The notes under the pieces were generated by a model. It saw only the letters and a list, made by a program, of their open reading frames with translations, searched no databases and was not told the DNA's origin. Shown piece by piece: positions 37,902 to 64,000 of a DNA stretch of 64,000 bases; the stretch's first letter is position 1, and every line of letters starts with the position of its first letter. Made by a program: the position numbers and the translations under genes. Source of the stretch: Acidobacteriota bacterium (lineage in GTDB: Bacteria > Acidobacteriota > Terriglobia > Acidiferrales > UBA7541); contig PMES01000148.1 of assembly GCA_003154775.1 (NCBI GenBank), positions 62,001 to 126,000 on the forward strand, given 5' to 3'.

Positions 37902-38013
37902 GTCATCCCGAGCGAAGCGACCCGATTTTTCTTGTGCGCCGAATTATGGCGCGTCGGGTCGCGCAGCGCGGTTTGTGCGCCCCGTACGCTTCGTCGGGGT
38001 CGAAGGGTCGCTC
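37902..38013 (-). repeat. family-A dispersed hairpin repeat (R1)
   Basis: GTCATCCCGAGCGAAGCGACCCGATTTTTC...GGGGTCGAAGGGTCGCTCT; near-identical in reverse to R3/R4. Confidence 0.85.
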
Positions 38014-38145
38014 TGCCTCCTTAAGGGGTGACAACGCTTTCTGTAGGTGCATGACTTCAGTCGTGCGTTCATGCGGGGCTGAAGCCCCACACCTACAACG
38101 GAACTCGTGCGCTTGCAGCACTTTTCCAGCATGCAAGAATGGGAA

Positions 38146-38161
38146 TGTCGGCGCGCCGACA
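38146..38161. repeat. 16-bp perfect palindrome TGTCGGCGCGCCGACA, copy 1
   Basis: Identical 16-mer recurs at 38488; each is followed by the degenerate family-C tandem repeat. Confidence 0.85.
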
Positions 38162-38230
38162 ATTGTACTTAACGGACTAGTTAACATGGTCGAAGAAAAC
38201 AAAAGAGTTATAGGGGAACACATTTGGTTG

Positions 38231-38316
38231 GAGGTACCCCCCACCCCCCTGTTTTTGCGGATGTACGGGAATAATTGGACTTACGGGCGACCCTCGCGGA
38301 TGTACGGGAATGATTA
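38231..38316. repeat. family-C tandem repeat, copy 1
   Basis: GGTACCCCCCACCCCCCTGTTTTTGCGGATGTACGGGAATAATTGGACTTACGGGCGACCCTCGCGGATGTACGGGAATGATTAGACTTAG. Confidence 0.75.
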
Positions 38317-38359
38317 GACTTAGTGGCGAGTGACGAGTGGCTAGTGGCGAGTGGCCGGA

Positions 38360-38404
38360 GAGATCCTTCGACTCGCCCGCCGCGGCGGACTCGCTCAGGA
38401 TGGA
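38360..38404 (+). repeat. family-A hairpin repeat (R2)
   Basis: GAGATCCTTCGACTCGCCCGCCGCGGCGGACTCGCTCAGGATGGAC; followed by the TGGACATCC/GGATGTCCA hairpin. Confidence 0.75.
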
Positions 38405-38487
38405 CATCCTTCACCGGATGTCCAGTTGTCAGTTTTAAGTATTAAGAAAATGCGGAAGAAGGAGAGAGGCGCTGCAAGGTTCAAAAA

Positions 38488-38503
38488 TGTCGGCGCGCCG
38501 ACA
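38488..38503. repeat. 16-bp perfect palindrome TGTCGGCGCGCCGACA, copy 2
   Basis: Identical to 38146-38161. Confidence 0.85.
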
Positions 38504-38606
38504 ATGTTAATTGGTGTTGGAGTAAACAGAGGGCTTAGAGAAGCGCGGTTATAGTTCACTTCCTCTATTCCCTTTACTTCCTTTGCTTCCCTTACTTCCT
38601 TCGGAT

Positions 38607-38700
38607 ATCCCCCACCCCCGTGTTTTTGCGTAAGTAGGGGAAACAAAGGGGTTACGGGAGAAATTCGTGGATGTAGGGGAAACAAAGGAGTTAGCGGGTG
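38607..38700. repeat. family-C tandem repeat, copy 2
   Basis: ATCCCCCACCCCCGTGTTTTTGCGTAAGTAGGGGAAACAAAGGGGTTACGGGAGAAATTCGTGGATGTAGGGGAAACAAAGGAGTTAGCGGG. Confidence 0.75.
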
Positions 38701-38827
38701 CAGGAGCGAAGGTGGGGCGAAGGACAAGGGGGTGGGACGTTCCGAAATGGCACAAGAGCAGCGTCCCCTCAGCATAACGGGTGGAGTTTAGCACATTATT
38801 TACCGTTTGTCTACTATTATTTAGTGG

Positions 38828-38849
38828 GTACTAGTTTCGAAACTGGTAC
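38828..38849. repeat. near-perfect palindrome GTACTAGTTTCGAAACTGGTAC
   Basis: 22 bp, one mismatched pair; at the 5' edge of the island. Confidence 0.7.
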
Positions 38850-38954
38850 TCGCTCGGAAGTGGGAACCCCAAGACCCGGCCTCACACCACGAGGCCGGGG
38901 CACTCAGAGTTTACTTCGCGATTGTTGCCGGGCCGCCAGCCGTCGGTTTGAAAA

Positions 38955-39323
38955 CTAGCTACCCCTGTCTGGTCGGGGTATATCAAGGATGATTTTTTTC
39001 ACTCTGCGCTTTTGCTTGATAGACTCCGCTTCGCCTTTCATAGTCAGAGTCACGTCATCATAATAGACGTCCCCCTGAGTGGAGCGTCTCTTACCTTTAA
39101 TTAGTTTTGCGACAATCAATGTTTCGATGGCGTGCTGGATTTCCTGATACGCTTGCTTGCGTTGTTCGGGGCTCTTCTCTGATTGGGGTTTCAGAGCCCT
39201 CATTAAATGCATGGTTCCGCTATCGTAACCGGGGTGGTCATATAGGTAGATCAAGATTGCTTCTTCTGTCTCACCGAATTCACCTGCTACCTCTATTTCA
39301 GTAGGCTTGCGTACCATTTCCAT
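38955..39323 (-). CDS. hypothetical protein (possible winged-helix)
   Basis: MEMVRKPTEIEVAGEFGETEEAILIYLYDHPGYDSG...; start at 39323 chosen because promoter-like motif M1 lies inside the longer ORF. Confidence 0.65.
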   Translation of the reverse strand: MEMVRKPTEIEVAGEFGETEEAILIYLYDHPGYDSGTMHLMRALKPQSEKSPEQRKQAYQEIQHAIETLIVAKLIKGKRRSTQGDVYYDDVTLTMKGEAESIKQKRRVKKIILDIPRPDRGS

Positions 39324-39335
39324 TCCCTTCCCGAG

Positions 39336-39365
39336 CGTGATTCTATCACGCTCCGATCTGAGCGC
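39336..39365 (-). promoter_or_regulatory. island promoter-like motif M1
   Basis: Minus strand ...CGGAGCGTGATAGAATCACG; extended -10 TGATAGAAT. Confidence 0.65.
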
Positions 39366-39436
39366 ATTCAAAGTAAGGCATGAACAAACTTGAAATATGC
39401 TCGCGTACTGGCGCTGTCGTGGCAGAGCCAATTTGT

Positions 39437-40084
39437 TTACTCGCTGTCCACATCGTTATAACGTATGCACATTTTAAGGATGTCAGGCTCCCCTTGCATG
39501 GCAATTCCGCTTCCAGTGCAGAAATTTGTCCAGTGCTTTTTGTCGAAAATGTCGGTGTAAATGATTCGACCGTAAAAAATAATGAAGTATTGACCGCTCT
39601 CAAGTCCTTTGCGCAAGTCCAACGGGGAAATAGCTACTGGCTTATCTCCATACCGGGTCACGTTGATGGTAACTGGAAAAGGCGAGTTTGGAAAAACAGC
39701 GCCAGCGTAAAACCTGTTGTGGGGATGACCTACCGAAAAATCGAAGGACGGCACCTCGCCCTTCATAAGTGCAGTAGCAATTAGGTCTGCCTCGACTTGT
39801 CTCGCCGGGGTTTTGCCGAAATTCGTCACTTGAAGTGTGGCTGGAGTAGTTGCGCCCTCCAATGGAAAATTGGCAGGCAAGACGTAACCTATCCAGGCTC
39901 GCTCGGCCAGCTTAACCTGTTGCTGCATAACACGAAGTTGAAAGAAGTAGACTATCAGTACTGCCAAGCCCACGACGATGCCAGCACGTTCTGGAAATCT
40001 TGGATTCTTGACAATCTGTTTAAGCTTGCTCACAAGCTCTCTAATCGTTTTCATAGACGTTCCGGGCGCAACATGATCTTTCAT
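39437..40084 (-). CDS. single-TM hypothetical protein
   Basis: RAGIVVGLAVLIVYFFQLRVMQQQVKLAERAWIGYVL...; start overlaps upstream stop. Confidence 0.7.
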   Translation of the reverse strand: MKDHVAPGTSMKTIRELVSKLKQIVKNPRFPERAGIVVGLAVLIVYFFQLRVMQQQVKLAERAWIGYVLPANFPLEGATTPATLQVTNFGKTPARQVEADLIATALMKGEVPSFDFSVGHPHNRFYAGAVFPNSPFPVTINVTRYGDKPVAISPLDLRKGLESGQYFIIFYGRIIYTDIFDKKHWTNFCTGSGIAMQGEPDILKMCIRYNDVDSE

Positions 40085-40320
40085 TGCACGCGAACCTTCG
40101 CGGTATGTGTCTGGATTTCAAAAACTCGCTGGCCCCGCTGATATGCTTGTGCTTCATCAAGCTTGAGCCATATTAGTGCATCGTTTTCGCAACCCGGTTT
40201 ACCGCACACAACGCCGCTGGATGGATGGCCTGCTGGAAGGTACGGTTCGTCCGAATAACCGGGCGGTTTCACGCTTCCGCCTGTAGGCTTGCCACATTTC
40301 TCGCATCGGGCGATTGCCAT
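40081..40320 (-). CDS. small zinc-ribbon hypothetical protein
   Basis: MAIARCEKCGKPTGG...VVCGKPGCENDALIWLKLDEAQAY; SD GGAGGAATCATG. Confidence 0.65.
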   Translation of the reverse strand: MAIARCEKCGKPTGGSVKPPGYSDEPYLPAGHPSSGVVCGKPGCENDALIWLKLDEAQAYQRGQRVFEIQTHTAKVRVQ

Positions 40321-40334
40321 GATTCCTCCACGGC

Positions 40335-40350
40335 GCGGATTTCATCACGC
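40335..40350 (-). promoter_or_regulatory. island promoter-like motif M5 (diverged)
   Basis: Plus strand GCGGATTTCATCACGC; overlaps the stop codon of the upstream gene. Confidence 0.4.
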
Positions 40351-40974
40351 ACTCGGTTGCGGATTCCTTTTGGCCGCCGGTCCATACGTCCCGATTAAAG
40401 CCTCGGCTTCCTTACAATCCGCAACGTAGTTCTGGACCGCAAGAAACTTTCCAATCAGAAGCAGCGTACAGGTGGTTGCGGTCGTCGTTGCCTGTGTGAT
40501 CTCTTCTTCAGTGTAAGCGGGTTTTGCAACTGCGCCCGTGAATCGGCGGCCCAGTTGAAGCATTCCAGTGTGAGCGTAGCTGCACATCGCGGCCCAACTT
40601 CGAGCCCGCAGGTTCTCAAAGAATCCTTGTGCCTGATACTTTGCGTCTATGGCCTGTGCCATCTCCACCATGTTCAATGGTAAACGGTCGTCTCGTTCAA
40701 AAACCTGTAGCTGCGCTTCCGTGGCACAAAAATTCACCCACAAGCCGCGATAGACCCCCTCGACAATGCTTCGGACCAGTGCGAATGCGGAACCAATTTT
40801 GTCGTTGCGGATTGAAAGCAGCATGGCCTCGTGGTGCTCGATGATTTGGGTGAGAGTGCCCATGACGATTACGCCACGCAAATCATCGGGATATGAGTGC
40901 CGGGCAAGAATGGCTTTTGCTTTACCCATTATCCCTTCGACCGTTTCGAGGTGTTTCGTAGTTTCTGGTGTCAT
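40345..40974 (-). CDS. hypothetical helical protein (possibly DUF6988-like)
   Basis: AIIEHHEAMLLS-like helical region (LTQIIEHHEAMLLSIRNDKIGSAFALVRSIVEGVYRGLW...); family assignment tentative. Confidence 0.65.
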   Translation of the reverse strand: MTPETTKHLETVEGIMGKAKAILARHSYPDDLRGVIVMGTLTQIIEHHEAMLLSIRNDKIGSAFALVRSIVEGVYRGLWVNFCATEAQLQVFERDDRLPLNMVEMAQAIDAKYQAQGFFENLRARSWAAMCSYAHTGMLQLGRRFTGAVAKPAYTEEEITQATTTATTCTLLLIGKFLAVQNYVADCKEAEALIGTYGPAAKRNPQPSA

Positions 40975-40985
40975 GGACCCTCCAA

Positions 40986-41003
40986 GCGTGGATTCTATCA
41001 GGC
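40986..41003 (-). promoter_or_regulatory. island promoter-like motif M2
   Basis: Minus strand CCTGATAGAATCCACGCT, 17 nt from the start codon. Confidence 0.6.
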
Positions 41004-41127
41004 ATCGGTAACTTTGGCGTACCGTACTTAATTGTTAGATGGAGACAGAGGCTTCCAAGGCGCGTGCTTTCTTCTTGTCGTCAGAAGATACTTCGGGGTG
41101 TGAAAATCGTTCGAGAAGAGTCCCTGA

Positions 41128-41358
41128 TTAGCTGCGGCGCACGTGGCTCAAGTCGCATTTCGGATTTCGTTTGAGATGTTCAAAGTGCGGCCCTTGTTTT
41201 CCGCCAGCCACCATCGGCTTAACTGGCTTTCGACATTTCGGATTTGGACAGCGAAATCCCAGCTTGCCAGCCGGGATTTTGAGCTTCAGAGCGTCAGCCA
41301 CTTCCCGAATCGCGTTCGCAAGATCAACGTCAATCAGGCATTCATTTATTTTGGGCAT
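41128..41358 (-). CDS. small zinc-binding hypothetical protein
   Basis: LGFRCPNPKCRKPVKPMVAGGKQGPHFEHLKRNPKCDLSH. Confidence 0.6.
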   Translation of the reverse strand: MPKINECLIDVDLANAIREVADALKLKIPAGKLGFRCPNPKCRKPVKPMVAGGKQGPHFEHLKRNPKCDLSHVRRS

Positions 41359-41385
41359 TGCGGTCTCTTCCCTTCTTAACTTAAC

Positions 41386-41416
41386 GCGGATTCTATCACG
41401 CGCCGACCTGCGCGAC
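41386..41416 (-). promoter_or_regulatory. island promoter-like motif M3
   Basis: Plus strand GCGGATTCTATCACGCGCCGACCTGCGCGAC. Confidence 0.65.
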
Positions 41417-41422
41417 GGCCCG

Positions 41423-41866
41423 TCACTCTCGATTCTTCCTGTCCTTTCGGCGTGGAACGTGTTCTTTGCGCACTCTCTTTTTTCGCTCTAATGGCTTCAG
41501 CCATCCAACCACAATCTTTGAAAGTTCTTTCCCTACAGGCCCGAAGAATTCTTTGCCAAATGCCTTGCCGCCTGCTACCCCTGCACTTATAGCAAAAATC
41601 ACGGAGATTCCCACTGCGGGATATTGGGAAAATGTGACCATCAGTCCCTGCGCTTGCGCCGGATCAATCGGATTACGCATTCGTGGAATCTCGTACTTGA
41701 TTCGCACTTCCGCACCCGGCCACCGCTTCGAGATTTCATTTCGCAGAGTCGGCAGCGCATGCTGAAGTGCGGTCGCGTCGTGCCTTGGGTAGGGGAAAGG
41801 AACAAATACTTCGGATTCTTGATCGGCACTGTTATTACCGCTTACAACTCTCACCAGCGGGGCCAT
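41423..41866 (-). CDS. hypothetical protein with central hydrophobic segment
   Basis: ORF with hydrophobic SVIFAISAGVAGGKAFG and basic C-terminus. Confidence 0.55.
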   Translation of the reverse strand: MAPLVRVVSGNNSADQESEVFVPFPYPRHDATALQHALPTLRNEISKRWPGAEVRIKYEIPRMRNPIDPAQAQGLMVTFSQYPAVGISVIFAISAGVAGGKAFGKEFFGPVGKELSKIVVGWLKPLERKKRVRKEHVPRRKDRKNRE

Positions 41867-41934
41867 TTAACCCTCCTTCACTGCGATCTCCGCGCTTCGG
41901 GCCAAACCATCTGGTTCTTACCCCATTCCTGTGG

Positions 41935-41965
41935 CCGGATTCCGGCATGCGCCGATCTGCGCGCC
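41935..41965 (-). promoter_or_regulatory. island motif M6 (diverged -10, conserved extension)
   Basis: Plus strand CCGGATTCCGGCATGCGCCGATCTGCGCGCC aligns with M3. Confidence 0.45.
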
Positions 41966-41984
41966 CTGAACTGGCAATGTCCAT

Positions 41985-42203
41985 TTATTTCTTCTTTGTG
42001 TCCATCCGCTCGAAGAACTTCTCCCAGCTCAAATTTCCAAGGCGCTTTCTTCCCTTGGGACCAACAAAGGCTGCAATGCCAGCGTGATTTATTTCCACGC
42101 GCCCAAGATACTTACCCCGCTTGCTGTGCGCCCATACCGTTAATCCGACCTTGCCCAGCGTGACCTTTTCGTGAAGCTTTAGATCTCCCATGCGCTTTTT
42201 CAT
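41985..42203 (-). CDS. small basic hypothetical protein
   Basis: MKKRMGDLKLHEKVTLGKVGLTVWAHSKRGKYLGRVEINHAGIAAFVGPKGRKRLGNLSWEKFFERMDTKKK; SD GGAGGAAT. Confidence 0.6.
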   Translation of the reverse strand: MKKRMGDLKLHEKVTLGKVGLTVWAHSKRGKYLGRVEINHAGIAAFVGPKGRKRLGNLSWEKFFERMDTKKK

Positions 42204-42223
42204 AGGCAGGATTCCTCCGTTAC

Positions 42224-42239
42224 GCGGATTCTATCACGG
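42224..42239 (-). promoter_or_regulatory. island promoter-like motif M4
   Basis: Plus strand GCGGATTCTATCACGG. Confidence 0.65.
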
Positions 42240-42401
42240 ATACTTTACTAGTGGGTACCGGCGCTGCGAGCTGGGCAGGCCGGGACAATGAATCCGAGAG
42301 CGTGGATGGGCGCCCAGTCCTCGTGGTTTGAGGGCAGGTCTTGGGGTTTGCGATGCTGCGCAAGGCTCGTCCAAGCCGGTTGAAATCACCGGGGAAAGAG
42401 A

Positions 42402-42468
42402 TGGTTTGGGGAGTCTTTGTTTGGAGGGCAGCGTTACGCCGGGAGTGAACTCCCGGCCTCCTAAAGAG
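42402..42468. repeat. family-B repeat (B1)
   Basis: TGGTTTGGGGAGTCTTTGTTTGGAGGGC...GCCGGGAGTgaACTCCCGGCCTCCTAAAGAG. Confidence 0.75.
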
Positions 42469-42473
42469 AAGAA

Positions 42474-42541
42474 GGGAGTTTGGGGAATTTTGTTTTGAGG
42501 GCGCTTGTATGTCGGACGTGAATGTCCGACCCCCTAAGGAG
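42474..42541. repeat. family-B repeat (B2)
   Basis: GGGAGTTTGGGGAATTTTGTTTTGAGGGCGC...GTCGGACgtgaatGTCCGACCCCCTAAGGAG. Confidence 0.75.
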
Positions 42542-42547
42542 GAAGAC

Positions 42548-42657
42548 AGATCCCTCGACCCCGACGAAGCGTACGGGGCGCACAAACCGCGCTGCACGAC
42601 GCGACGCGCCAAACTGCGGCGTGGCAGAAAAACTCGGGTCGTTTCGCTCGGGATGAC
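42548..42657 (+). repeat. family-A hairpin repeat (R3)
   Basis: AGATCCCTCGACCCCGACGAAGCGTACGGGGCGCACAAACCGCGCTGC...CTCGGGATGAC. Confidence 0.88.
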
Positions 42658-42751
42658 GGCGGGGGAGAAGAGCGGACCCACCTTTTGCTGAAAGCGCAAA
42701 AGATGGGCCACCCGGGGGCTCCCACACCCTAACAATGTGCCGCCCACAAGG

Positions 42752-43066
42752 TCAGGCCATGAGCAGGGCTTTGGGGTTCTTCTTGGCGATCACCAGGAGT
42801 TTGAGCGCGGCTTGGCGCGGGCGGCGGGTGCCTTGCTCCCAACTGCGCACGGCGTTGGGGCTGACGTTCAGGAAGGTGGCGAAGAGCGTCTGGCTGGCAT
42901 TGAGGGTGAGGCGGATGCGGCGAACTTCCTTGGGCGAGATTTGCCGGGGGCGCGCGGGAATGCGCGTGATACGCAGATTGACAGCCTGGCCACGCTCATA
43001 GGCCGCGGCGTCCTGAAGCGCCTCCCTCATGTCGTCGAAGATATTCAGCTTGATTTTCTTTGCCAT
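42752..43066 (-). CDS. XRE-family helix-turn-helix (HigA/antitoxin-like) regulator
   Basis: RISPKEVRRIRLTLNASQTLFATFLNVSPNAVRSWEQGTRRPRQAALKLL. Confidence 0.88.
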   Translation of the reverse strand: MAKKIKLNIFDDMREALQDAAAYERGQAVNLRITRIPARPRQISPKEVRRIRLTLNASQTLFATFLNVSPNAVRSWEQGTRRPRQAALKLLVIAKKNPKALLMA

Positions 43067-43085
43067 GTTCAGCCTCAATGTGAGA

Positions 43086-43102
43086 ATACCACATTGTGGT
43101 AT
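43086..43102. promoter_or_regulatory. probable operator of the XRE regulator
   Basis: Perfect palindrome ATACCACA-T-TGTGGTAT directly upstream of the gene. Confidence 0.7.
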
Positions 43103-43157
43103 AGGGAGTTTGCACGTACCCGCAGGTGACCTCTAAAGGAGCGGAGAGAGGCGAAGA

Positions 43158-43268
43158 GAGATCCCTCGACCCCGACGAAGCGTACGGGGCGCACAAACCG
43201 CGCTGCGCGACCCGACGCGCCGTAATTCGGCGCGAAAGAGAAAATCGGGTCGCTCCACTCGGGATGAC
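43158..43268 (+). repeat. family-A hairpin repeat (R4)
   Basis: GAGATCCCTCGACCCCGACGAAGCGTACGGGGCGCACAAACCGCGCTGCGCGACCCGACGCGCC...CTCGGGATGAC. Confidence 0.9.
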
Positions 43269-43360
43269 GGCGAGGGAGAAGAGCGGGTAGCTGGGAGAAG
43301 AGCAGTGGCGAGTGACCCTTCGCGGAGATCGCTCTGGGTAAACGAGTGGCGAGCGGGGTC

Positions 43361-43455
43361 GGGGAGTTTGGGGAGTTTTTATTTTGGGATGGCCTGGATG
43401 TCGGACCCTTCGAGGCTCAGCGTAGACATGAATGTCCGACCCACTAAGAAGTAGG
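43361..43455. repeat. family-B repeat (B3)
   Basis: GGGGAGTTTGGGGAGTTTTTATTTTGGGATGGC...GTCGGAC[27-nt insert]GTCCGACCCACTAAGAAG. Confidence 0.7.
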
Positions 43456-43456
43456 A

Positions 43457-43534
43457 GAGATCCCTCCACTCCGCGGCCCGACGCGCCACAAGTCGGCGCG
43501 GAAGAAAAAGTCGGGCCGCTCCGGTCGGGATGAC
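43457..43534 (+). repeat. family-A hairpin repeat (R5)
   Basis: GAGATCCCTCCACTCCGCGGCCCGACGCGCC...CGGTCGGGATGAC. Confidence 0.88.
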
Positions 43535-43766
43535 AGAGGGTAGAGGAGCGGACCGCCGCGCAACCCCGACCGGGGCGCAAAGAACGCGTTTCCCTCCTTC
43601 GGCGGGCAGGCAGGAGGCGGCCACTACACAAGAAGCAAGAAGTGGTAGGTTGAACTTATCCCGTACCTTTTAGGGTGAAGGTGTTGCGCGGGGCGCGCGG
43701 CGGGGTGCGTTGAAGCTGTGATATGCTGCGTGGCGAGCCGGAGAGTCCGACGAAGGAGATCGCACC

Positions 43767-44090: not shown

Positions 44091-44181
44091 GTCATCCTGA
44101 GGCGATCCGATGAGGTCCAGTGTCGGGACTCCGGTGGAGTCCACCGGACTCCCAAAACCGGAGATCGCCGAAGGACCTCGA
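44091..44181 (-). repeat. family-A hairpin repeat (R7)
   Basis: GTCATCCTGAGG...GGGACTCCGGTGG-AGT-CCACCGGACTCCC...CGAAGGACCTC. Confidence 0.75.
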
Positions 44182-44209: not shown

Positions 44210-44271
44210 GAGATCCTTCGGGACGCCCCGACCAGGTCGGGGTAAACGCCCGGCGCGCCCCTCAGGATGAC
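44210..44271 (+). repeat. family-A hairpin repeat (R8)
   Basis: GAGATCCTTCGGGACGCCCCGACCAGGTCGGGG...CTCAGGATGAC; inverted relative to R7. Confidence 0.78.
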
Positions 44272-61061: not shown

Positions 61062-62627
61062 ATGACCAAACGACCAAAACCTGTTGTACTCACTGTGTTG
61101 GATGGATGGGGCTACCGAGCCGAAACGCGGGGCAACGCCATCGCTCTGGCGCGCAAACCCACGTATGACGAACTGCTGCGCAAGTTTCCGAATACGTTGA
61201 TTCAGACGTCGGGACCCGCCGTGGGGCTTCCCGTAGGCCAGATGGGCAATAGCGAAGTTGGGCACCTGAATATCGGCGCGGGGCGCATCGTGCACATGGA
61301 CATCACGCGCATCGACCTGCTGATCGCCAACAAGCAGCTTGATCAAGTGCCGCTATTCCAGCAAGCCATGGAACGCGGGCGTCAGCGCCAGTTGCATTTC
61401 CTCGGGTTGCTGAGCGACGGCGGCGTGCACTCGCACATCAACCATCTGTTTGCGTTGCTGGAGATGGCCAAGCAATGGAAGGTGGAGAAGGTTTTTGTGC
61501 ATTGCTTCATGGACGGCCGCGACACCCCGCCGAATAGCGGACGGGACTTCGTCCGCCAGTTGCAGCAGAAAATGCGCGAGCTGGGCGTCGGCGAAATCGC
61601 CACCGTGGTCGGCCGCTATTACGCCATGGACCGCGATAACCGCTGGGAGCGCGTCGAACTGGCTTATCGCGCACTGGCTCACGGCGAAGCGGAGACGAAG
61701 AGCAGCGATCCTGTCGCGGCGCTTCAAAGCAGCTATGAACAGGGCGTGACCGACGAATTCGTGAAGCCCGTGGTGATTACGCGTGGCGAGGGGCCTTCGG
61801 CTCCCCCAGTTGGCCCGATTCACGATGACGACGCGGTGATCTTTTACAACTTCCGCGCGGATCGCGCGCGGCAAATGACCTTTGCGCTGGAGGCGCCGAA
61901 CTTTGACAAGTTCGCCGACCCCAAACGCCCGAAGAACCTCTTTTTTGTGGGCATGACGAAGTACGACAAGAAATGGGAGTGGCTGAAGTGCGTGATCATG
62001 CCGGAAAAACTGGAGCACATCCTGGCGCAGGTGTTTCAGGATCTGCAATACAAGAATCTGCGGTGCGCGGAGACGGAAAAATACGCGCACGTCACTTATT
62101 TCTTCAATGGCGGGGTGGAAAAACCGTTCAATGGAGAGGAGCGCATCCTGGTTCCTTCGCCCAAGGTCGCGACTTATGACCTGAAGCCGGAAATGTCCGC
62201 GGAAGGCATCACCAACACCGTGGTGAACGCGATCGAGAAAGGCGAATTCGACGCGATCATCATGAATTATGCCAATGCGGACATGGTCGGGCATTCCGGA
62301 AAGCTGGAAGCCGCGATCAAAGCCGTGGAAGCCGTCGATGCCGGGCTGGGCCGCATCTACCAGGCGATGAAGCCGCGCGGCGGCGCGTGGATTATCACCG
62401 CCGATCACGGCAACGCGGAAACCATGATTGATCCGGTTACTGGCGGGCCGCACACGTACCACACGACGAATCCTGTTCCCTTCATTTATGTTAGCGAAGA
62501 TGAGCGCCTGAATGTTTCTCCCGGCGGCGCCCTGCGTGACATTGCGCCGACTCTACTGGGGATTCTGGGTGATTCCGTGCCTTCCGACATGACCGGGCGC
62601 GATTTGCGCCTGAAGCCGAAGGTTTAG
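61062..62627 (+). CDS. gpmI: 2,3-bisphosphoglycerate-independent phosphoglycerate mutase
   Basis: [66 protein letters not shown]. Confidence 0.97.
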
Positions 62628-62729
62628 CCTGCGCCGATGATCGGCGGGGGAGCACTTCAGTAGGGGCGCCACATTCAAACGCGCGATAGAGGAAGTGCCT
62701 GCCCTTTTGTTTTGAGTTAGTGGAAAGTT

Positions 62730-62769
62730 GAGATCCTTCGAGCCGATCAGAATCGGCTCTCAGGATGAC
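62730..62769 (+). repeat. family-A hairpin repeat (R11), abuts GIY-YIG ORF start
   Basis: GAGATCCTTCG-AGCCGATcagAATCGGCT-CTCAGGATGAC. Confidence 0.85.
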
Positions 62770-62771
62770 AG

Positions 62772-63110
62772 TTGAGTGGAGTTTTCTCCGTGGAGAAAAG
62801 GTACAGCGTCTACATCATGAGCAATGTATCGAAGATGTTGTACGTGGGCGTGACGAACGATCTTGAAAAGAGGGTCCTTCAACACAAATCCAAACTCATT
62901 CCTGGTTACACGCAAAAATACAATTTGTTCAAACTTGTCTGTTTTGAGTCCTTCGGGGATATTCGGGATGCCATCCGCCGGGAAAAGCAGATCAAAGGCT
63001 GGCTTGGCTCCAAGAAAGTGGCGCTGATCGAGTCCGTGAATTTGAAGTGGAATGACCTGGCGGAGGCGCACTTCAGTAGCGGCGTAAAATTCGAACCTAT
63101 GTCATCCTGA
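62772..63110 (+). CDS. single-domain GIY-YIG nuclease
   Basis: KRYSVYIMSNVSKMLYVGVTNDLEKRVLQHKSKLIPGYTQKYNLFKLVCFESFGDIRDAIRREKQIKGW. Start TTG 62772 or GTG 62790. Confidence 0.93.
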   Translation: MSGVFSVEKRYSVYIMSNVSKMLYVGVTNDLEKRVLQHKSKLIPGYTQKYNLFKLVCFESFGDIRDAIRREKQIKGWLGSKKVALIESVNLKWNDLAEAHFSSGVKFEPMSS

Positions 63111-63139
63111 GGCCCCTGATTTTGGGGCCGAAGGACCTC
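63101..63139 (-). repeat. family-A hairpin repeat (R12), overlaps GIY-YIG stop codon
   Basis: GTCATCCTGA-GGCCCCtgattttGGGGCC-GAAGGACCTC, inverted relative to R11. Confidence 0.82.
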
Positions 63140-63175: not shown

Positions 63176-64000
63176 ATGAATTTTCAGCGAAGCACACCGG
63201 AAAACACCAAGCTGACCATTTGCGTCTGGCATCCGTTCAGCGAATGGCGGCCGAAACCTGCCATGGCCAGGGCGATCCGCACGCGCTGGCCCCTGATGCG
63301 CGTCGTTCACTTGCCGGATTACACGCGCCTGGCGGAGGAATTGCCGGACACGGATATTTTCATTGGCTACTCGCTCCGGCCGCAGCAACTCCAGGACGCC
63401 AAGCGGCTGAAGTGGATTCATTCCACGGCCGCCGGCGTGGCGCAGTTGATGTACCCGGAGCTGCGCGAGTCCGGCGTCGTGGTGACCAATCCCCGCGGCA
63501 TTTTTTCCGCACCCATGGCGGAGCACGCAATCGGGCTGATGCTGGCCCTGGCCAGGAATTTCCCCGATTCCGTGCGGCAGCAGGACCGCGCTCAGTGGGC
63601 CCAGCAAGCGTTATGGGACCTGCCACAACATCTGACCGAATTGAATGGCCGGCTTCTGCTGATTGTCGGCTTCGGTTCCATCGGCAAAGAACTGGCGCGC
63701 CGCGCCAAAGCGTTCGACATGCGCGTGTGGGGCGTGAGCCGTTCCGGGAAGGGAGACTCCGCGCTGGCGGAGAGAATCGTGCCGGTAGCGGAATTGCGGG
63801 CTGCTCTCCCGCCGGCCGATTTCGTGGTGCTAGCCGCGCCGGAAACACCGGAAACGCGGCACCTGATCGGGCCAGAGGAGATCGCGCTGATGAAGCCGGG
63901 TGCGCGGCTAATCAATGTCGCGCGCGGCTCGCTATTGGACGAAGCGGCCTTGCTTCGGGCACTCGAGGGAGGAAAGCTGGGTGGCGCCGCCCTCGATGTG
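63176..64000 (+). CDS. D-2-hydroxyacid dehydrogenase (partial, runs off window end)
   Basis: Manual translation: MNFQRSTPENTKLTICVWHPFSEW...LLLIVGFGSIGKELARRAKAFDMRVWG...LMKPGARLINVARGSLLDEAALLRALEGGKLGGAALDV. Not in ORF track (no stop in window). Confidence 0.92.
   Translation, partial: MNFQRSTPENTKLTICVWHPFSEWRPKPAMARAIRTRWPLMRVVHLPDYTRLAEELPDTDIFIGYSLRPQQLQDAKRLKWIHSTAAGVAQLMYPELRESGVVVTNPRGIFSAPMAEHAIGLMLALARNFPDSVRQQDRAQWAQQALWDLPQHLTELNGRLLLIVGFGSIGKELARRAKAFDMRVWGVSRSGKGDSALAERIVPVAELRAALPPADFVVLAAPETPETRHLIGPEEIALMKPGARLINVARGSLLDEAALLRALEGGKLGGAALDV

Follow-up and report, generated by a model that had tools for sequence, protein, structure and literature searches.

A small GIY-YIG nuclease gene within inverted hairpins as a possible partner of CGTC-type REPs

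The unit described here, in which a GIY-YIG nuclease gene lies within two inverted cognate hairpins, is probably a small autonomous repeat unit, and its nuclease is probably a RAYT-like enzyme for CGTC/TGTC REPs, catalysis and mobility being inferred. It was found in the window, i.e. the whole stretch of 64,000 nucleotides that was analysed (G000:C87:62001-126000), which is part of a genome of 4.6 Mb in 150 contigs, probably one of the Acidobacteriota as far as its relatives indicate. CGTC-tagged REPs, whose first stem pairs are AT, occur in many phyla and include dRS3 of Neisseria and RPE-4/6 of Rickettsia (Di Nocera et al., 2013; PMC3733652). They 'apparently lack a dedicated transposase' and were reported without association with transposase genes (PMC3733652); what moves them was left open by Di Nocera et al. 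(2013). The present data name a specific, testable enzyme, and suggest that the partner by which a large class of bacterial repeats is spread, missing for so long, is this GIY-YIG clade.

Results

The unit and its hairpins

A reading made earlier from the sequence only had identified the central ORF (Table 1) as a GIY-YIG nuclease, and this assignment was borne out by a profile match to PF01541 (E 6e-16). The AF2 model of the protein has a pLDDT of 94, and its top structural matches are UPF0213 and Slx1, a branched-DNA nuclease. The two inverted hairpins described in the sequence-only reading have the same coordinates in our analysis, and both fold as drawn (as DNA, on the GTC strand, -12.1 kcal/mol and z -4.2 for the upstream hairpin, -9.5 kcal/mol and z -2.9 for the downstream one); the stop codon (TGA, 63108-63110) does lie inside the second of them. 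The upstream hairpin had been said to end 2 nt before the first possible start codon. This is correct for the TTG, but the start that is likelier by homology is the GTG, 20 nt past the hairpin. Two further points had to be corrected: the hairpins are not outward copies in the window, where the GTC heads face the gene, although they face outward at most homologous loci; and the unit does not stand alone, because the genome contains three close GIY-YIG genes, each with a hairpin nearby.

On the GTC strand, the layout of the window hairpins is GTC-ATCCT-GA-stem-GA-AGGAT-CTC, that is, a constant head, an outer stem of 4-5 bp starting with AT, a tandem GA/GA mismatch forming an internal loop, a variable inner stem of 6-8 bp and a CTC tail. 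The estimate of about 10 copies of the repeat in the window is roughly right, provided that related subfamilies are counted. One of the dispersed copies (44091-44179) carries in its loop a perfect hairpin, CAGTGTCGGGACTCCGGTGGAGTCCACCGGACTCCC.

Table 1. Position of the GIY-YIG unit, its host neighbours and some dispersed hairpins in the window.
Feature	Position	Strand	Remarks
GIY-YIG nuclease CDS	62790..63110	+	GTG start by homology; TTG at 62772 as alternative; about 106 aa
Upstream hairpin	62730..62769	-	GTC head on the - strand; head toward the gene
Downstream hairpin	63101..63139	+	Inverted relative to the upstream hairpin; head toward the gene; the GIY-YIG CDS stops within it
Direct repeat, copy 1	62643..62680	+	38 nt; left junction of the segment missing in G034
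Direct repeat, copy 2	63059..63096	+	82% identical to copy 1; within the 3' end of the GIY-YIG CDS
Phosphoglycerate mutase (iPGM), left neighbour, host gene	61062..62627	+	DHGNAE motif; synteny with the dehydrogenase gene in the genus
D-2-hydroxyacid dehydrogenase, right neighbour, host gene	63176..64000	+	Starts 4-50 nt past the mutase stop in most genus members examined
Dispersed hairpin, same family	44091..44179	+	Second hairpin nested in the loop
Dispersed hairpin	44210..44271	-	Heads-outward inverted dimer with 44091-44179
Related dispersed element, diverged subfamily member	starts 37902..37923	+	Begins GTCATCCCGAGCGAAGCGACCC...

Linkage of gene and hairpins across phyla

The link between gene and hairpin holds in about 18 phyla. 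Genomes of 84,980 species, one per species, were scanned with an alignment of 26 homologues, and the 80 best loci were kept on the protein match alone; according to their record titles they span about 18 phyla, including Nitrospinota, Chloroflexota, Patescibacteria, Cyanobacteriota, Bacillota and Actinomycetota, and 76 of the genes were usable for flank counts. Of the 76 GIY-YIG genes, 53 had a hairpin of the type [TC]GTC-AT..AT-C[TC] within 150 nt on one side or both, as opposed to 57 of 707 other ORFs at the same loci (Fisher 3e-33); for hairpins on both sides, the counts were 32 of the 76 and 3 of the 707 (Fisher 2e-32). The enrichment around homologues relative to control genes, which had been proposed as a check, is therefore strong. 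The density of repeats is 6.0 per kb at 0-100 nt from the GIY-YIG genes and drops to about 0.1 per kb at distances over 1 kb. Where the nearest hairpins on both sides were scored, most were spaced 5-50 nt from the conserved domain. With a looser motif, repeats were found at 67 of the 80 genes; several of the remaining 13 have variants (e.g. ..GGGACC) or are cut by contig ends. The host family has 32 close homologues, of which 29 are flanked by a hairpin on one side or both, and 23 on both.

Small genes might simply land in repeat-rich intergenic regions, by chance or because these are hotspots, and it is true that the repeats are intergenic and clustered. Such an explanation is hardly credible, considering that only 1 of the 262 control ORFs shorter than 600 nt has repeats on both sides, that distant single-domain GIY-YIG genes of similar size in the same bacterial family (0/20) and the mobile Y1_Tnp genes (Y1/HUH transposase, PF01797) of the host family (0/30) are never flanked by these hairpins, and that the nearest hairpins are inverted with their heads outward (+-) at 35 of the 51 loci where both were scored, about a quarter being expected. 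Chance is rejected both by the locus-matched ORFs and by the reversed-sequence control, which gave 3 motif matches in 1.09 Mb. The heads-inward order is rarer, and was seen in the window and at L097 of the scored set.

Two broader hypotheses were also discarded: that every GIY-YIG gene is repeat-associated, in view of the distant homologues, and that the repeats have a Y1/HUH (RAYT) origin, in view of the unflanked Y1_Tnp genes. It may be mentioned that on plasmid p1 of Planktothrix agardhii (L335) the GIY-YIG/hairpin unit is located between an MmeI-type restriction gene and the DISARM gene drmA, inside a likely defence island.

The unit as an insert

The gene and its hairpins form a discrete insert of 0.4-0.5 kb whose sites are empty in relatives; orthologous sites without the unit, the existence of which had been another proposed check, thus do exist. 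In the genus members examined, the GIY-YIG unit is present between the mutase and dehydrogenase genes only in G000 and G026. In most of the others, the dehydrogenase gene starts 4-50 nt past the mutase stop, with neither gene nor hairpin between, while three contain some other sequence there, about 240 nt long. G034, which is the closest relative and has a nucleotide identity of about 92%, is without 62681-63058, and its junction consists of one copy of the direct repeat and the downstream hairpin.

The sequence-only reading had mentioned this direct repeat as a weaker one of about 28 nt bracketing most of the unit. It is indeed present, but is longer (38 nt, 82% identity), and marks exactly the junction that is single-copy in G034. 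As a recent target-site duplication it is not supported, because its copies are 82% identical as against 92% for the species, and one copy is coding. Since the copies differ by 18%, that is, more than the species do, a duplication before the split followed by loss in G034 is the better reading. Loss by recombination between the direct repeats is favoured but not proven, because the C-terminal tails are variable.

In Azospirillum lipoferum 4B, two CGTC dimers and a GIY-YIG gene split the suf operon between sufB and sufC; in its relatives (95-96% identity), the two genes are about 90-130 nt apart and no CGTC repeat is present. A clean target-site duplication could not be resolved at either locus, the window repeat being 82% identical and partly coding, and the Azospirillum intergenic DNA too diverged. 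No clean within-species empty site was found in the strain comparisons of S. meliloti and Rhizobium.

Structure, dispersal and number of the hairpins

Covariation was studied on 420 elements retrieved solely with the patterns GTCATnnnGA and ..nnnATC[TC], so that the triplets were unconstrained. The outer-stem triplets are complementary in 314 of the 420 elements, where 43 would be expected, and at least eight stem types occur, each paired with its own complement; the stems thus covary almost perfectly, which points to strong compensatory change that maintains the hairpin structure. GA is opposite GA in 264 of 311 elements. Because the GA/GA mismatch exists only on the GTC strand (it is TC/TC on the opposite one), we infer that the GTC strand is the functional one.

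Gene-free copies are dispersed and for the most part form inverted dimers with their heads outward (+- in 35 of 61 neighbouring hairpin pairs away from the gene). The whole genome contains 29 copies of the strict element and 103 of the broader hairpin form, compared with none for the reversed pattern in either case. In this genome, the dimers often consist of two different hairpins about 30 nt apart, and in this they resemble the heterodimers described for CGTC REPs.

In a comparison of 89 genomes of the family, the 34 that have the clade contained a median of 40 repeats, compared with 10 for the other 55, an about fourfold difference (p=1.4e-6); it should be noted that these are MAGs, and that kinship was only partly corrected for. 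Repeat number is related to gene presence also within the genus of the window (p=0.0025). Repeats are thus more numerous in gene-bearing genomes. Most of the tests named with the sequence-only reading were carried out, and none of the three results that would have refuted that reading (no enrichment around homologues, repeat number independent of the gene, the gene fixed without flanking hairpins) was seen. Some gene-free genomes are nevertheless rich in repeats, e.g. G082 with 128, which implies that repeats persist, or are moved, without the GIY-YIG gene.

The intergenic repeat content of G034:C186 and G000:C87 is strongly different in spite of about 92% identity; as judged from these sequences, a rapid turnover is suggested. 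The segment at about 38122-43698 of the window is rich in hairpin repeats and has little similarity to the otherwise 92% identical G034. A dimer array beside the GIY-YIG gene differs by ~250 bp of repeat units between pSymB of Sinorhizobium meliloti Ak57 (L332) and Sinorhizobium sp. C101 (L347), a difference that may reflect local amplification.

The position of the stop codon within the 3' hairpin of the window, together with the fact that REPs can act at the RNA level (PMC3733652), could indicate that the hairpins terminate or stabilise the mRNA of the GIY-YIG gene, and that this is what they were selected for at this place. This is very improbable for hairpins that occur on both sides of the gene, often as dimers or arrays, and have copies throughout the genome far from it, all the more so as gene and hairpins are gained or lost as one insert.

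Cognate pairing of nuclease and hairpin

The type of hairpin tracks the nuclease paralogue. The alphaproteobacterium G225 (loci L292-L301) has 10-11 GIY-YIG paralogues with 33-63% mutual identity, most of which have a hairpin type of their own, e.g. ATTCGCCG, ATTGCCGGG, GTCGTCCCCCGG or ATYGCGAG. The match between upstream and downstream flanks averages 22.7 for the same gene and 8.8 for different genes (permutation p=5e-5). Away from the genes, few copies of these types were found (5 matches in 400 kb); they are nearly confined to the gene flanks, and high copy number is therefore not universal. On a tree of 142 proteins, the state of the GA loop changes 23 times, compared with at least 34 times in 300 shuffles, although this signal is partly confounded with host lineage. 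At least 140 of the 142 homologues retain the catalytic residues (Tyr, Tyr-x-Gly, Arg, Glu and Asn), which implies that the enzyme is under purifying selection; the window CDS also conserves H.

The pairing bears on two other explanations. In the first, the gene would be a selfish rider of the homing type, which inserts copies of itself into REP hairpins that are already present, after cutting them, while the repeats are spread by something else. We regard this as unlikely, yet not negligible: GIY-YIG domains are common in homing endonucleases, repeats are present in gene-free genomes, and the protein weakly resembles TIGR01453, a model for group I intron endonucleases, albeit far under the cut-off (19.3 bits vs 56). 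However, most relatives lack both gene and repeat at the Azospirillum and window loci, so that the site is not a widely shared older repeat; the hairpins are whole on both flanks, with no split one; repeats are more numerous in gene-bearing genomes; and the paralogues have hairpin types of their own. A unit that is an intergenic insert, with no repeat at the empty sites of relatives, does not meet the criterion for a homing endonuclease gene.

According to the second explanation, the hairpins are the terminal repeats of a cassette moved in trans by another transposase (HUH or DDE), with the GIY-YIG protein as an accessory or regulator. That hairpin type tracks the GIY-YIG paralogue and that no Y1_Tnp gene is flanked make this improbable, even though Y1_Tnp genes are present in 65 of the 89 family genomes and no target duplication signature identifies the mover. 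Moreover, the links between CGTC repeats and transposase genes in the 2013 survey were only fortuitous (PMC3733652). The reading that we prefer remains that of an autonomous unit, with the nuclease as the enzyme of its own hairpins.

Discussion

The window-type elements share with the CGTC REP superfamily the unpaired TGTC/CGTC head, a stem whose first two positions are AT, and the heads-outward dimers. They differ from it in the GA/GA internal loop, the longer variable stems and the CTC tail. CGTC families 1-4 are defined by an uninterrupted stem of 8-9 bp, a loop of 4-5 nt and a CCA tail, which are found in the flanks of alphaproteobacterial GIY-YIG genes but not in the window copies; the latter, differing in stem, loop and tail, are thus a sister type outside the four published families. 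In a strict perfect-stem search, 14 of 30 GIY-YIG loci of Alphaproteobacteria were flanked by CGTC-type elements. Classical CGTC REPs also flank GIY-YIG genes of A. lipoferum, N. gonorrhoeae (dRS3), Rhizobium, Shinella and Aeromonas, and variant heads those of S. meliloti, Sphingobium and Novosphingobium. GIY-YIG is not mentioned by Di Nocera et al. (2013; PMC3733652), nor are nucleases in the 2025 RepRanger survey, and no earlier link between GIY-YIG and REPs was found in the open literature (preprints and most subscription journals were outside the scope of the search).

The closest parallel is the REPtron, i.e. RAYT (TnpA-REP, a Y1 HUH transposase) with its GTAG REPs and REPINs (PMC2817692, PMC3116915, PMC3733652). 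In both systems the gene is flanked by two inverted REP palindromes, gene-free inverted dimers are dispersed, several gene-repeat pairs may occur in a genome, and the palindromes covary and have a constant unpaired head. However, the enzyme here has about 95 aa and belongs to the GIY-YIG nucleases (PF01541) and not to the Y1 HUH transposases (PF01797), and the head is TGTC/CGTC and not GTAG. Enzyme family and repeat head were both tested and both differ: although it would work in the manner of a REPtron, the unit cannot be called one.

The single-domain GIY-YIG proteins of the UPF0213/YhbQ type (1zg2, 1ywl) and Slx1 have the same fold and active-site layout, but Slx1 acts with Slx4 on branched DNA in eukaryotes, and distant single-domain GIY-YIG genes of the host bacterial family have no flanking repeats. 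Terminal inverted repeats and gene-free derivatives are also known from MITEs and TIR-bounded insertion sequences; here, in contrast, there is no DDE or HUH transposase, the ends are hairpins, and target duplication has not been shown.

The sequence-only reading had put forward a stand-alone GIY-YIG protein in a RAYT-like role. The association supports this proposal; enzymatic action on the hairpins and movement remain inferences. In the mechanism that we propose, the nuclease would recognise the GTC-tagged hairpin when this is single-stranded (e.g. in the lagging-strand template) or extruded, and would nick it near the head. Repair or replication might then bring a copy of the two hairpins, which may or may not include the gene, to a new intergenic site. 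GIY-YIG would thus have for CGTC/TGTC REPs the role that RAYT/TnpA-REP has for GTAG REPs, performed by an unrelated nuclease.

Whether these units constitute a new class of autonomous mobile elements distributed across bacterial phyla is, in our judgement, an evenly balanced question. Such elements would be among the smallest possible (about 0.4-0.5 kb), with a single-domain GIY-YIG nuclease as their sole protein and GTC-tagged hairpins as their ends, and would be the source of CGTC-type REPs and their dimers. Mobilisation, if shown, would establish such a new class, and mobilisation by a stand-alone GIY-YIG protein, if true, would represent a type of chemistry that prokaryotic transposition is not known to use. 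The data also suggest that the arrangement of REPs plus enzyme has at least two origins, with unrelated nucleases, and suggest a possible function for a very common small gene that usually has no annotation beyond 'GIY-YIG nuclease family protein' or 'excinuclease ABC subunit C'. As regards the annotation of this gene, many homologous GIY-YIG ORFs extend into the 3' hairpin, and their annotated C-termini end in translated repeat (e.g. DPSLRSG), which is a likely source of odd C-terminal tails in protein databases.
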